A stretch of DNA of 21,099 bases, from IMG/VR virus record IMGVR_UViG_3300007520_000095, positions 1 through 21,099 of that record. One strand, written 5' to 3'. The notes beneath the pieces were generated by a model, which did no database searches, was not told the origin of the DNA, and saw only the letters and a program-made list of their open reading frames with translations. Positions 3,323-8,276 of the stretch are shown piece by piece. Made by a program: the position numbers and the translations under genes. Source of the stretch: a virus. Numbering within the stretch: the first letter of the stretch is position 1; every line of letters starts with the position of its first letter.

Positions 3323-3828
3323 TGCGCGGATTGGAGCGCGTGGCGCGGGATCGGCGGCACCTGGTGGCGGCGCAGGTGCGGTGCAGCACCGGATTTACCA
3401 CGGGCCACGCCGTCGACGGAATAGGGCGGCTGCGCGCGGCGGGGGTGTGGGCGGGGCCTGCGATCCGCGCGGCGATGCTGCCGCCGGTGGTGGTGCTGCC
3501 ATCTCCCGAGCCGGGGGCGCGGCGCAGCAATGCCGCGGCGCTGCTGGCGGTGCTGGAGGTGTGGCCTGAGGGCGAGCCGCTCGGCACGCTCACCGAAATG
3601 GCGCACCGGGCCGGGTTCGGGCGCGACGCGAGTAGCAGCTCGGCGTACCACGCGAGCAACGCGCTGGATCTGCTGATCGCGGACCGGGCGTTGGTGATGA
3701 CAGTCGGCACGCGGCAGGCATGGCACGGCGAGCGGGCGCTGCTGCTGCGCGCCTCCGGCCGGCTGCTGGCCACGGTGCGGGCGCCAAGCTTCTGGGCGAA
3801 GCGGATGCGGGAGATGGCCAGTGCCTAA
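3322..3828 (+). CDS. Hypothetical early protein, possible winged helix, 168 aa
   Basis: The start ATG overlaps the previous stop as TGATG, and the end overlaps the next gene by eight bases, so the gene is embedded in a coupled operon. Two segments look domain-like. Residues 1-60 contain GFTTGHAVDGIGRLRAAGVW. Residues 72-150 contain a helical region followed by SSSAYHASNALDLLIADRAL and a strand-turn-strand (ALVMTVGTRQAWHGERALLL), a pattern typical of a winged helix. No catalytic motif is visible. It probably binds DNA or partners with the regulators beside it, but no named family can be assigned. Confidence 0.55.
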   Translation: MRGLERVARDRRHLVAAQVRCSTGFTTGHAVDGIGRLRAAGVWAGPAIRAAMLPPVVVLPSPEPGARRSNAAALLAVLEVWPEGEPLGTLTEMAHRAGFGRDASSSSAYHASNALDLLIADRALVMTVGTRQAWHGERALLLRASGRLLATVRAPSFWAKRMREMASA

Positions 3829-4306
3829 AGAGACATGGACCAGCGAACAAATACTCCGTCTGCGCTCGCTGTGGGCCGAGGGGCATTCGGCGGCGGAGAT
3901 CGGTCGGCGACTGGGCTACAGCAAAAACGCGGTGGTCGGCAAGACGCACCGCGAGGGGTTGCCGTCACGGCCGTCGCCGATCCGGCCAGATGGTGCCGCG
4001 AAGAAGGCCAGGCCGGCGCGGCTCGGCGCGGTGACGAAATGGGGTGGCCTTGGGCGCGAGGAGCCGAGCACGCTGGTGACGCTCGGGGTCGCGGCCCAGA
4101 CGGCGGTGGTGGTGCCCGAGGCGCCGCGCCTGTCTGGGCGGTCGCACGAGTGCTCCTATCCGATCGGTGAGCCGCGCACGCCGGGGTTCCGCTATTGCGA
4201 TGCGCCAGCGCCGGCTGGGCGCAGCTACTGCGAGGCGCACCACCGGGTGGCGCATGTGCAGGGGCCGGTACGCGAGCCGCCGGTGTATGCGGCGTGGTTG
4301 CGCTGA
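3821..4306 (+). CDS. GcrA-family cell-cycle regulator homologue, 161 aa
   Basis: GcrA is an alphaproteobacterial transcription cofactor that binds sigma70-RNA polymerase and CcrM-methylated GANTC sites. The N-terminal DNA-binding region (residues 5-50: TWTSEQILRLRSLWAEGHSA, then GYSKNAVVGKTHREGLPSRP) matches the GcrA signature closely. The C-terminal region (residues 108-143) keeps the family's cysteine/histidine pattern: C111-x-YPIGEP, FRYC126, GRSYC137 and H140/H141. The start is GTG 3821 with GGGAG upstream, overlapping the previous gene by eight bases. The length is close to Caulobacter GcrA. It could redirect host cell-cycle transcription to the phage or control phage genes. No GANTC site is present in the intergenic regions of this window. 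Confidence 0.85.
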   Translation: MPKETWTSEQILRLRSLWAEGHSAAEIGRRLGYSKNAVVGKTHREGLPSRPSPIRPDGAAKKARPARLGAVTKWGGLGREEPSTLVTLGVAAQTAVVVPEAPRLSGRSHECSYPIGEPRTPGFRYCDAPAPAGRSYCEAHHRVAHVQGPVREPPVYAAWLR

Positions 4307-4503: not shown

Positions 4504-4925
4504 GCGCGTCGCCGCCCGTCGGCCCGGTCAATCGCTGGCGCTGTATCGCCGGGGTGTATGGCCGGCTGGTGGCGCAGGGGGTGATGGCGCGCGACGAGGC
4601 GCTGGCGTCGCTGCTGGCGGCGGGGGCGGAGCGGATGCCGCGCATGGCGGCGTGCGGGCGGGACATGCGGCTGGCCTGGGCCCTGGACGATGCCGTGGCC
4701 GCGTGGCGCATGGGGCGCGACCGGACGCGGTTCGCGTTGCGGCGGGCGTTGGCGCCGATGCTCGCCGAGCGGGCGCCCTCGGCGCGGCTGCTGGCGGTGG
4801 CGCGGTCGATCAATCTCGACGCGGGTGGGGCGCTGCTGGAGCGCGAGGTGTTGGACGAGGTGCGGCGCGAGGTTTACTGGGCGGCGCGCCGCCAGCAGCC
4901 GCAACAGGCGAGGCGGCGGGCATGA
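4500..4925 (+). CDS. Hypothetical early protein upstream of the replication ATPase, 141 aa
   Basis: Coupled on both sides by ATGA overlaps. The sequence is Arg/Ala-rich and helical, with conserved-looking segments WRCIAGVYGRLVAQGVMARD (residues 13-32) and a C-terminal helix rich in Glu/Arg (residues 112-135) ending in a basic tail. I do not recognise the family. Its position immediately before the P-loop ATPase makes a helicase loader, primase accessory or replication-associated role possible, by position alone. Confidence 0.55.
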   Translation: MSASPPVGPVNRWRCIAGVYGRLVAQGVMARDEALASLLAAGAERMPRMAACGRDMRLAWALDDAVAAWRMGRDRTRFALRRALAPMLAERAPSARLLAVARSINLDAGGALLEREVLDEVRREVYWAARRQQPQQARRRA

Positions 4926-6742
4926 CGGACGCGATACTTGACGTATGGGATGCGGGCGGCCCTATGCCGGGCCAGCGGCCTCCGCCGCCGCCTGACGACA
5001 GCGGGCTGCCGGCGCCGACCGATCCCTGGGAGAGCGCGCCGTTCGTGCCGCTGGGCAAGTCGCTCGCGGTGTATTGGTTTTTCGACGCCTCGGGCGAGAT
5101 CGTGTCGTTGACGGCGCGGGCGCTGGGGCAGTGGCAGGACGTGCTGAGCCTGTGCGGCGGTGCCGAGGGCTGGCTGGGGGCGTGGTTCCCCGCGTTCGAC
5201 AAGGAGGGCATCCCCACCGGCGGGTTCAATGTGCGGCAGGTGGCGGCCGCGATCATGCGTCGGTGCCAGGAGATGCCGAGTTTTGACGCCAGCGAGCCGC
5301 GCCGGCGCTACGGGCTGTGGCCGGTGACGGCGGAGGACGGCAGCCCGGGCGCCGCGCTGCACCTGGGCAAGACGGTGATCTGGTGCGGCGAGCCGCTGCG
5401 GGCGGGGTTCGCGCGGGCGGGGGCGTTGTGGCCGGCGATGGCGCCGCGCTCTGCCCCGGCCGACCCGGCGAGCGCCGAGGTGGGGCAGGCGCTGGAGGCG
5501 ATGCTCGGGCGCTGGGCCTGGGCGCACCCCGATTCGGCGGCGGTGATGCTCGGTCTGGTGGTCAACGGGATGCTGGGCGGTCTCGCCTCGTGGCGCGCGC
5601 ACGGGTTCGTGGTGGGCGAGGCGGGCACGGGCAAGACCACCCTGCTGCGCTTCCTGGCCAGCCTGTGCCCGTTGACGGTGTTCCGTAATGATTTCACCGA
5701 GGCCGGCGTGCGGCAGATGCTCAGCGAGACCTCGGCCAGCGTGATCCTCGACGAGGCCGAGGGTGACGAGCATGGCGATTCGAAACTCAAGCGGGTGATC
5801 GAAATGCTGCGGCGCTCCAGTTCGGGCGCGGGCGTGCAGGGTGTGCGCGGGTCGCCGGAGCAGGTGTCGCGCGCGTTCTCGGTGACGGCGAGCGCGATCA
5901 TGGGGGCGATTTTGCCGCCGGCCCTGCCCTCGCAGGATGCCAGCCGGTTCACGGTTTTGCAGCTGCGCAAGCTGGCCGCCGAGGGGGATGCGCGGGAGAT
6001 CGAGGCGTTCGCCAAGCAGCACGGTCCCGGGCTGTGGGGGCGGGCGGTGGCGTCGGCCGGGCGGATCGTCACCCTGTTCCGGCGGCTGAGCGTGCGGCTG
6101 GTGGAGGAGGGGTGTTCGCGGCGTGCTGCGGACCAGCTCGGCATCATCGCGGCGTGCCACTGGGCGATGACGACGGAGCCGCACTACGACCCGAGCGAGG
6201 CGTCGCCAGACACCTATGCCGAGGCGCTGGCTCCGGTGCGCTGGCTGATCGTGCCGGAGGCGGAGGGCGAGGTGGATAGCGGGGGCAACCAGGCGCTGCA
6301 GCGGCTGCTGGCGATGCCGCTCGATATGGTGGGCGACAAGATGTTGCTCGGCCAGGCGCTGGAGCGATACCGGGAGCTGGGTCGCAAGCTCGCCGAGATG
6401 AATGTTGATTGGCCTGACCGCACGTTGACCCAGACCGATCACGACAAGTTGGGGCGGCTGTTGGAGGCGCACGGGGTGCGCTGGGCGCGATTGCCGCTCA
6501 AGCCTGCGGCGGCGGCCCCCGCGCCCCCTGTGGGGTTATACGTGGCGGCTGGCTCGCATCCGCGGCTGCTGCGCGGGTTCGATGGCACGCCGTGGGCTGG
6601 GCAGCGATGGGCCTCGGCGCTGGCGCAGTTGCCGGGCGCGGCGGGCGGGCGCGAGGCGCCGGCGGTGCATATCGGCGGTTCGAAAATGCGCACGTGCTGG
6701 GTGAGCCGGGAGACGCTGGACCGGCTGACGGGCGACGACTGA
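4922..6742 (+). CDS. Phage replication P-loop ATPase / putative helicase, 606 aa
   Basis: A large NTPase. The Walker A motif GEAGTGKT is at residues 232-239 (Lys238) and a Walker B-like VILDE is at 274-278, preceded by the linker FRNDFTEAGVRQMLSETSAS. Further downstream are RRSSSGAGVQGVRGSPEQVS and SVTASAIMGAILPPAL (sensor-like). This order resembles phage replicative helicase or DUF927-like ATPases, which use ATP to open duplex DNA at the origin. The N-terminal 200 residues (proline-rich start, then a globular region with WFFDASGEIV) could be a primase-like or DNA-binding domain, but no primase metal motif is evident. ATG 4922 overlaps the previous stop as ATGA. It is the last gene of the early cluster and is followed directly by the GTGTGAC repeat hub, which may be its origin. 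The precise helicase superfamily is uncertain. Confidence 0.7.
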   Translation: MTDAILDVWDAGGPMPGQRPPPPPDDSGLPAPTDPWESAPFVPLGKSLAVYWFFDASGEIVSLTARALGQWQDVLSLCGGAEGWLGAWFPAFDKEGIPTGGFNVRQVAAAIMRRCQEMPSFDASEPRRRYGLWPVTAEDGSPGAALHLGKTVIWCGEPLRAGFARAGALWPAMAPRSAPADPASAEVGQALEAMLGRWAWAHPDSAAVMLGLVVNGMLGGLASWRAHGFVVGEAGTGKTTLLRFLASLCPLTVFRNDFTEAGVRQMLSETSASVILDEAEGDEHGDSKLKRVIEMLRRSSSGAGVQGVRGSPEQVSRAFSVTASAIMGAILPPALPSQDASRFTVLQLRKLAAEGDAREIEAFAKQHGPGLWGRAVASAGRIVTLFRRLSVRLVEEGCSRRAADQLGIIAACHWAMTTEPHYDPSEASPDTYAEALAPVRWLIVPEAEGEVDSGGNQALQRLLAMPLDMVGDKMLLGQALERYRELGRKLAEMNVDWPDRTLTQTDHDKLGRLLEAHGVRWARLPLKPAAAAPAPPVGLYVAAGSHPRLLRGFDGTPWAGQRWASALAQLPGAAGGREAPAVHIGGSKMRTCWVSRETLDRLTGDD

Positions 6743-6745
6743 CGC

Positions 6746-6819
6746 GCCGGTGTGACGGTGTGACATGCCGTGTGACTTTTTAGCGTTGATATTGCTCAAA
6801 GTCACACGGTCACACCGGC
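6746..6819. repeat. 19-bp inverted repeat (18/19), 36-bp spacer
   Basis: Left arm 6746-6764, right arm 6801-6819, one central mismatch. The left arm also recurs as a direct repeat at 6880-6897 (17 of 18 bases identical to 6747-6764). As RNA it would form a long hairpin, but no U-run follows. Confidence 0.85.
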
Positions 6820-6834
6820 ACACCGGGTTTCCCT

Positions 6835-6864
6835 TATGTGTGTGTGTGCGCGCGCGCATGTATG
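6835..6864. repeat. 30-nt alternating pyrimidine-purine tract (Z-DNA candidate)
   Basis: Every step from 6835 to 6864 alternates pyrimidine and purine, with a (TG)6 block followed by a (CG)4 block. Such tracts adopt left-handed Z-DNA under negative supercoiling. It lies between the inverted GTGTGAC arms and the third repeat pair. Confidence 0.75.
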
Positions 6865-6913
6865 AGGATTGATGGTGTTCCGGTGTGACTGTGTGACATT
6901 GAAGGAAATCAGT

Positions 6914-7678
6914 ATGTTAGACGGACACCAGCAGGAACACGGGAACACCGGGCCGAATATGCCGAATGCCATTGACGGCGGCGAGGCATCGGGCGTAATG
7001 GTCGGGCGTTCCGCTCCCGGTGCGAGTCGCCCGGAGTGCGTGAGCTATCCAGACATCGACGGTCTATTCAAACCCGCAACGGAAAAGCGCGGGGGCGCGC
7101 GGGCCGGATCAGGGCCGAAGCCGCGGCCGCCTTCGGTGGCGGTGGTGGCGCCGTCCGCGGGTGGGCCGCGGTGGTATTGCGTCGAGGCGCACGCGCGGGC
7201 CGAGGCATTCGCGGTAGGCCAGATGATCGCCCAGGGGTTCCAGGCGTTCGTGCCGCTGCACCTCGTGCAGGCGCGGACCAGGCCGGGCGAGGCTCGGCAG
7301 ATGCGGCAGGCGCCGGCTTTCCCGGGGTATGTGCTGTGCGAGTTCGACGCGCGTGTTGATCCGTGGCGGCGTCTGGCTTCGGCGCGTGGCGTCAAGCGGC
7401 TGATGGGGTGGGATGCCGAGCGGCCAGCGCCGCTGCCTATCGGCGAGGCGGCCTGGATCATCGCCCAGTTCGGGCCGGCCGGCGTGCAGCTGATCCCGTC
7501 GCCTGTCCCGCCGGCTGGGGCAGAGCCGTTGGCCCTGGGCCAGTGGGTGCGGATCGTCGCGGGGCCGTTCCGTGGGTACGAGGGCCGGGTGCGGTCGAGC
7601 GATGGCCGCGAGGTGGCGCTGGTGGTCGCGGGTGTCGTGATGCGGATGGTGCAGGCGGCGGTTGAGGTGTCCGCGTGA
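6914..7678 (+). CDS. Phage NusG-like transcription elongation/antitermination factor, 254 aa
   Basis: NusG-family proteins bind elongating RNA polymerase and suppress pausing or termination. Residues 1-84 are a low-complexity, likely flexible N-terminal extension containing the basic motif KRGGARAGSGPKPRPP, a motif also common in phage packaging proteins. The NGN domain spans about residues 85-185: PRWYCVEAHARAEAFAVGQM, then AFPGYVLCEFD and GVKRLMGW. The KOW domain spans about residues 208-254: LGQWVRIVAGPFRGYEGRVR onward. I chose ATG 6914 because GAAGGA lies seven bases upstream. The longer frame from 6869 would read through the GTGTGAC repeats. It is the only gene between the early cluster and the terminase genes, the position of late antiterminators such as lambda Q. 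Use as the late-gene activator is inference. Confidence 0.8.
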   Translation: MLDGHQQEHGNTGPNMPNAIDGGEASGVMVGRSAPGASRPECVSYPDIDGLFKPATEKRGGARAGSGPKPRPPSVAVVAPSAGGPRWYCVEAHARAEAFAVGQMIAQGFQAFVPLHLVQARTRPGEARQMRQAPAFPGYVLCEFDARVDPWRRLASARGVKRLMGWDAERPAPLPIGEAAWIIAQFGPAGVQLIPSPVPPAGAEPLALGQWVRIVAGPFRGYEGRVRSSDGREVALVVAGVVMRMVQAAVEVSA

Positions 7679-7763
7679 AATCGCGGGTCCTCCCTGGCCC
7701 AAACTCTATGCGGGCAGGCAGTGCGCGCAAGATCGCTAGTCCGTTCACTTTCAAACGCTGAAC

Positions 7764-8276
7764 ATGATGAACCTCTTGAACATGCCGAATAGCGAAACTG
7801 AACACGGCCTGACCCAGCGTGAGGCTGCCGCTCGCCTCAAGGTTTCGGTCGGCACCATCAACCGCCGGGTCCGGGACGGGGACCTGGCCCTTCTGCCCAA
7901 CGGCAGGATCGACGCCGCCGGCCTTTCTGACACGTCGAACATCGCTGCCGAAATCGCACATGGCGCCCCCCGCAACTCGATCGGCCGCACCGCATCCCAG
8001 GCACGAGCCGAGCGCGATCAGGTCCTCGCCCGCATGGCCGGCCTCGACTACGCCGAGCGCGTTGGCCAGCTCGCCGCCACGGCCGATGTCGAAGCGGAGC
8101 AGACCACCATTGCCCGCCGCTTCCGTGATGGCCTGCTGTCCATACCAGCTCACCTGGCCCCCTCGCTAATCAACCTCCCCGATCCGCGCCAGATCGAGAC
8201 CGCGCTCCGGCGCGCCTTCACCCAGTTCCTCGACGGCCAGGCTGCCGCCCTTCATGACGAGCCCGCTCCCCCCTGA
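7764..8276 (+). CDS. Terminase small subunit (Nu1-like), 170 aa
   Basis: The small terminase recognises the phage DNA packaging site and recruits the large subunit. Residues 16-53 form a MerR/Nu1-type winged helix (LTQREAAARLKVSVGTINRR, then LLPNGRIDAAG). The middle and C-terminal parts (80-165) are helical, for oligomerisation and TerL contact. The length is close to lambda Nu1 (181 aa). The next gene is a GpA-type large terminase and overlaps it by 23 bases, which confirms the pairing. The start is uncertain between ATG 7764, 7767 and 7782; none has a good ribosome site, and TGAACATG occurs at both 7759 and 7777. Base usage switches here from G-rich to C-rich third codon positions. Confidence 0.8.
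   Translation: MMNLLNMPNSETEHGLTQREAAARLKVSVGTINRRVRDGDLALLPNGRIDAAGLSDTSNIAAEIAHGAPRNSIGRTASQARAERDQVLARMAGLDYAERVGQLAATADVEAEQTTIARRFRDGLLSIPAHLAPSLINLPDPRQIETALRRAFTQFLDGQAAALHDEPAPP

Follow-up and report, generated by a model that had tools for sequence, protein, structure and literature searches.

The virus record IMGVR_UViG_3300007520_000095 (21,099 bases, analyzed at its full length and referred to here as the window) is a fragment of about 21 kb. It encodes a GpA terminase, a lambda-type portal, an S49 protease, a Mu gpT-like head protein and tail proteins, and therefore derives from a tailed phage. A CII-like gene suggests a temperate lifestyle. A homolog of GcrA, a cell-cycle regulator of alphaproteobacteria, is encoded at 3821-4306 (+ strand; PF07750, E 5.5e-28), and its carriage by the phage suggests an alphaproteobacterial host. 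A protein scan of genome contigs returned no close relatives, and a DNA search among named phages gave no meaningful match. Directly 3' of a gene for a 606-aa ATPase lies a hub of short repeats (iterons), followed by a NusG/KOW gene and then by the small and large terminase, portal, protease, head and tail genes. The features of the locus are as follows.

4922..6742, + strand: 606-aa AAA+ ATPase gene, phrog_21086-like, a putative self-loading initiator helicase
6750..6776, + strand: arm A, three GTGTGAC iterons (6750, 6758, 6770)
6777..6800: AT-rich core 1, 29% GC, one of the record's lowest-GC 24-mers, a candidate melting site
6801..6823, - strand: arm B, exact iterons at 6801 and 6809 plus GTGTGCC at 6817
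6835..6864: alternating purine-pyrimidine tract of 30 nt, TATGTGTGTGTGTGCGCGCGCGCATGTATG, the symmetry centre
6875..6897, + strand: arm B', GTGTTCC at 6875 plus exact iterons at 6883 and 6891, an inverted copy of B
6898..6933: AT-rich core 2, 42% GC overall, 29% in its first 24-mer
6934..6948, - strand: arm A', two GTGTTCC (6934, 6942) at a spacing of 8 bp, within the 5' end of the NusG-like coding sequence
6914..7678, + strand: NusG/KOW-domain antiterminator-like gene (PF02357, E 9.7e-11; phrog_6386, E 4.3e-15)
7764..8276: small terminase gene (phrog_57), with the hub about 0.8 kb upstream

The first iteron lies 7 bp past the ATPase stop codon (6742), in agreement with the first-pass annotation, which had placed the repeats immediately after a replication ATPase gene. 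That annotation had counted seven exact GTGTGAC heptamers and one degenerate copy in about 150 bp. We recover the same set, with all seven exact copies (GTGTGAC or GTCACAC) between 6742 and 6897 and a single mismatch in the GTGTGCC at 6817. The three GTGTTCC copies each carry two mismatches. The whole record contains eight copies of GTGTGAC compared with 1.8 expected, a number reached in 0 of 100 shuffles, and the most found in any 200 bp of 300 dinucleotide shuffles was two, compared with seven in the hub. Doublets of the form GTGTNNC-N-GTGTNNC occur six times in the 21,099 bases; because every one of them sits inside the hub, the degenerate arm A' is supported as part of it.

The hub consists of two modules, A/core 1/B and B'/core 2/A', mirrored about the tract at 6835-6864. 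Arm B lies 26.5 bp and arm B' 25.5 bp from the centre of the tract, and the two are inverted copies of each other with a near-perfect match. The inverted arms reported earlier are indeed identical at 18 of 19 positions (6746-6764 and 6801-6819), and the 24-bp AT-rich stretch is core 1. However, core 1 had been taken as the centre of symmetry, a place that belongs to the alternating tract, and the hub had been drawn at 6746-6897; its repeats are real, but it reaches about 6948. The four-arm symmetry, the central tract and the occurrence of GTGTGAC hubs beside other helicase families are additions to that description. No other alternating run in the record is as long as the tract (the runner-up is 14 nt), which is presumably Z-DNA-prone or easily unwound. 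Elsewhere in the record, 24-mers at or below 29% GC are found only near 20.7 kb. The start of the NusG-like gene falls in core 2, with its ATG at 6914 and a ribosome site of the AAGGA type. GC skew, suggested earlier as a further check, lends no support to an origin, as the cumulative curve has its maximum near 7.7 kb and no minimum at the hub. There is an abrupt switch from positive to negative skew at 7600-7800, close to where the late genes begin, although gene direction is unchanged there.

The ATPase matches PHROG 21086 (E 5.8e-91) and, more weakly, phage DNA primase family 35358. For an AlphaFold2 model of the protein (pLDDT 88.4, 67 sequences), the best fold match in the PDB is 5dgk, the SCCmec Cch helicase (E 1.3e-7), followed by NrS-1, poxvirus D5/E5, African swine fever virus PrimPol and SaPI5 primase-helicases. 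The whole-chain TM-scores against 5dgk are modest (0.41/0.46). Comparison with the DUF927 profile is weak (16–18% probability), so that sequence profiles alone do not place the ATPase there, and profile-profile comparison with D5, DUF927 and VapE alignments gave weak matches only. The predicted fold makes the ATPase a putative initiator helicase of the self-loading type. Its C-terminal domain is predicted to be alpha/beta (pLDDT 84.8), and searched alone it has no significant fold match. SaPI Rep and Cch2 read their iterons via the C-terminal domain, and for Cch2 iteron binding by the isolated domain has been demonstrated biochemically (PMC7581432). By analogy, our guess is that the C-terminal domain of the ATPase could be the iteron reader here.

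We collected 89 non-redundant homologs of the ATPase from named phages, genomes and viral contigs. A hub counted as significant when a 6-mer recurred more often than in shuffled sequence (p up to 0.01) in the 400 bp 3' of the stop codon. Significant hubs follow 43 of the 89 homologs compared with 8 of 329 control regions (41/87 when the record itself and one homolog found through the motif, a Caulobacter contig, are removed). In about half of the 89, no hub was detected in this 400-bp interval. A search of related phages for the same repeat after the ATPase gene had been suggested as a check; the hub does recur in this position, but its word differs, with CGTAAC, GTTAGG, TGTCCC, TGTGAG, TGTAAC and TGTATC among the iterons. 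All hub words contain GT (background 52%), and 28 of the 43 fit GTNA[CG] (background 2%). Neighbouring iterons in the same orientation are mostly 8–9 bp apart. The words closest to GTGTGAC are those of Synechococcus phage MinM1 (GTGTGAG) and of the Caulobacter contig, in which GTGTGACG and GGGACG are mixed. The gene that follows the hub may encode a sliding clamp, thymidylate synthase, an HNH protein, a tail protein or a protein of unassigned function, whereas the helicase gene is constant. The NusG/KOW gene (phrog_6386) also follows the hub in MinM1 (L041:3946-4575) and is absent at the other neighbours examined.

Two of the homologs, L288 and L291, are 95% identical in the AAA region and 79% identical in the C-terminal region. 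Their hubs align, and the iterons change from GTGAC to GTAAC at corresponding positions, which is the pattern expected if one trans-acting protein reads the iterons. Pairs of this kind make a change of iteron specificity by the initiator directly testable. Over all hubs, the association of C-terminal-domain divergence with the iteron, beyond that of the rest of the protein, was not significant (Mantel p 0.13). The alternating tracts of these two loci (L288:4630-4990 and L291:4630-4990) measure 80 and 64 nt and lie between the inner iteron arms.

Alternating runs of at least 16 nt are found in 19 of the 43 hubs, in none of 43 hubless downstream regions and in 10 of 1093 control windows. When runs of at least 12 nt are considered, 28 of 29 fall within the hub, mostly near its middle. 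In 25 of 28 cases the strand of the flanking iterons switches across the tract (p 1.4e-5). The lowest-GC 24-mer lies below 99.5% of the remaining locus in 40/43 hub regions versus 17/46 non-hub regions. The tract is mostly absent from hubs of other helicase families, and thus marks the family of this ATPase. Differences in GC skew between the left and right sides are small across the homologs and give no clear origin signal.

GTGTGAC hubs were also sought directly, using the exact doublet in viral contigs and a gapped pattern in genomes, with a hub defined as at least five copies per 300 bp. Where a helicase neighbour was recognised, the hub is at the 3' end of the helicase gene, and the helicases belong to the D5_N, DUF927, VapE-like and AAA_25 (RecA-like) families. 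Since these hubs were picked by motif, they demonstrate recurrence and not prevalence. A significant hub lies downstream in 12 of 36 VapE-like loci, where several different words are again seen. In one viral contig (L028:2894-3167), GTGTGAC occurs nine times together with an alternating tract of 19 nt, and no helicase was recognised adjacent. Eight Variovorax genomes (L144, L146, L155, L171, L176, L185, L198, L208) contain inverted clusters of 3–4 copies, and no helicase was recognised alongside these clusters. A Lachnospiraceae metagenome genome, RGIG5021, has several clusters on separate contigs (L143, L152, L166, L180, L181, L184), which is unlike a single origin. Some genome matches adjoin histidine kinases, integrases or an MscS channel, and are probably due to chance or to something else.

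Given the homolog hubs in the same place and an architecture of the PICI/SaPI type, the comparison strongly supports the reading of the hub as an origin, as the first-pass annotation had proposed. On sequence comparison we consider it highly probable (about 0.87) that this tailed phage starts its replication at the hub, which would then be a PICI/SaPI-like iteron origin in duplicate, arranged around an alternating tract. The NusG-like gene is a neighbour and lies outside the origin proper. Because the record is a 21-kb fragment, a further origin may exist elsewhere. In the mechanism we propose, ATPase rings would form at the flanking iteron arms, with the rings left and right of the tract facing opposite ways, and the AT-rich cores, the alternating tract or both would open. 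The helicases would then unwind the DNA, allowing host or phage primase and polymerase to start.

The hub could instead be a cluster of operators, which the first-pass annotation had named as the alternative for the NusG-like gene. A phage repressor or activator bound to GTGTGAC would then control that gene and also the late genes downstream of it. The hub is directly upstream of the NusG-like gene, arm A' overlaps the gene start, MinM1 has the same neighbour gene, and binding by an initiator could also be autoregulatory. However, other genes follow the hub in most homologs examined while the helicase stays, GTGTGAC hubs lie behind helicase genes of several families, and no sigma-70-like promoter was found in 6600-7050. 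Operator control is therefore an improbable explanation. Sites of the CRP type were also considered in the hub, and no pair has the TGTGA-N6-TCACA spacing.

Two other explanations are less probable still. The inverted repeats might form RNA hairpins that terminate the replication transcript at its 3' end, and 6755-6776 on the + strand does hold one hairpin of the terminator type, with a T run. A search of the hub against Rfam returned nothing at the gathering threshold. Termination would leave unexplained the direct repeats at 8–9 bp, the four arms, the second AT core and the tract, as well as a conserved layout in which the word changes, and we regard it as very unlikely as the function of the hub, although a terminator may coexist with the origin. 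Packaging sites are often found near terS, and the position of the hub upstream of the small terminase gene would suit a pac or cos site for that enzyme. However, the hub does not track the terminase, since the genes next to it in the homologs include those for a sliding clamp, thymidylate synthase, HNH proteins and tail proteins, and iteron arrays with AT-rich cores suit initiators. Packaging is the least likely of the explanations considered. Roles as operator, packaging site or terminator are possible as secondary functions, but they do not explain the comparative pattern.

More tentatively, and at somewhat less than even odds, the putative origin described here may represent a widespread class of phage origins in which mirrored iteron modules surround a central tract that acts as the opening element, and in which GTNAS-type iterons switch in concert, so that the helicase encoded next to the origin would read a code private to its phage lineage. 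To our knowledge, origins are unmapped for most phages with helicase-primase genes. The present comparison provides a search rule, namely inverted short iterons and a low-GC core just 3' of a helicase gene, with an alternating tract in the family of this ATPase, and the rule yields testable origin predictions for about 40 phages together. It would also extend to tailed phages an origin layout that has been described as unique to PICIs. Within the limited set of literature searched, we found no description of mirrored doubling with a central tract.

Several characterized replication systems share parts of this arrangement. Phage P4 has an ori plus crr, with a different repeat. The ATPase described here has no fused primase, in contrast to the P4 alpha protein, which, according to a published summary (PMC4234260), is a helicase-initiator that binds origin repeats via a C-terminal winged helix. 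The origin of the archaeal plasmid pRN1 is likewise found 3' of a primase-helicase gene, within about 170 bp (PMC4234260), but it consists of a long stem-loop without iterons. The SCCmec Cch2 origin (PMC7581432) also has short iterons (AAGTG), in its case downstream of a gene for a self-loading helicase; there the iterons are three direct repeats, whereas here a different word forms four inverted arms around a central tract. The closest similarity is to the origins of PICIs and SaPIs such as SaPIbov1 and EcCICFT073, which lie directly 3' of an initiator-helicase gene, and the pri-rep-ori region of EcCICFT073 maintains a plasmid (PMC6092414). The initiators of these elements are of the self-loading helicase kind, as the ATPase putatively is from its predicted fold. 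The record itself is not a PICI, as it has its own terminase, portal, head and tail genes, in contrast to a helper-dependent satellite. Its hub thus differs from the PICI/SaPI origins in belonging to a tailed phage and in having the module doubled and mirrored about an alternating tract.
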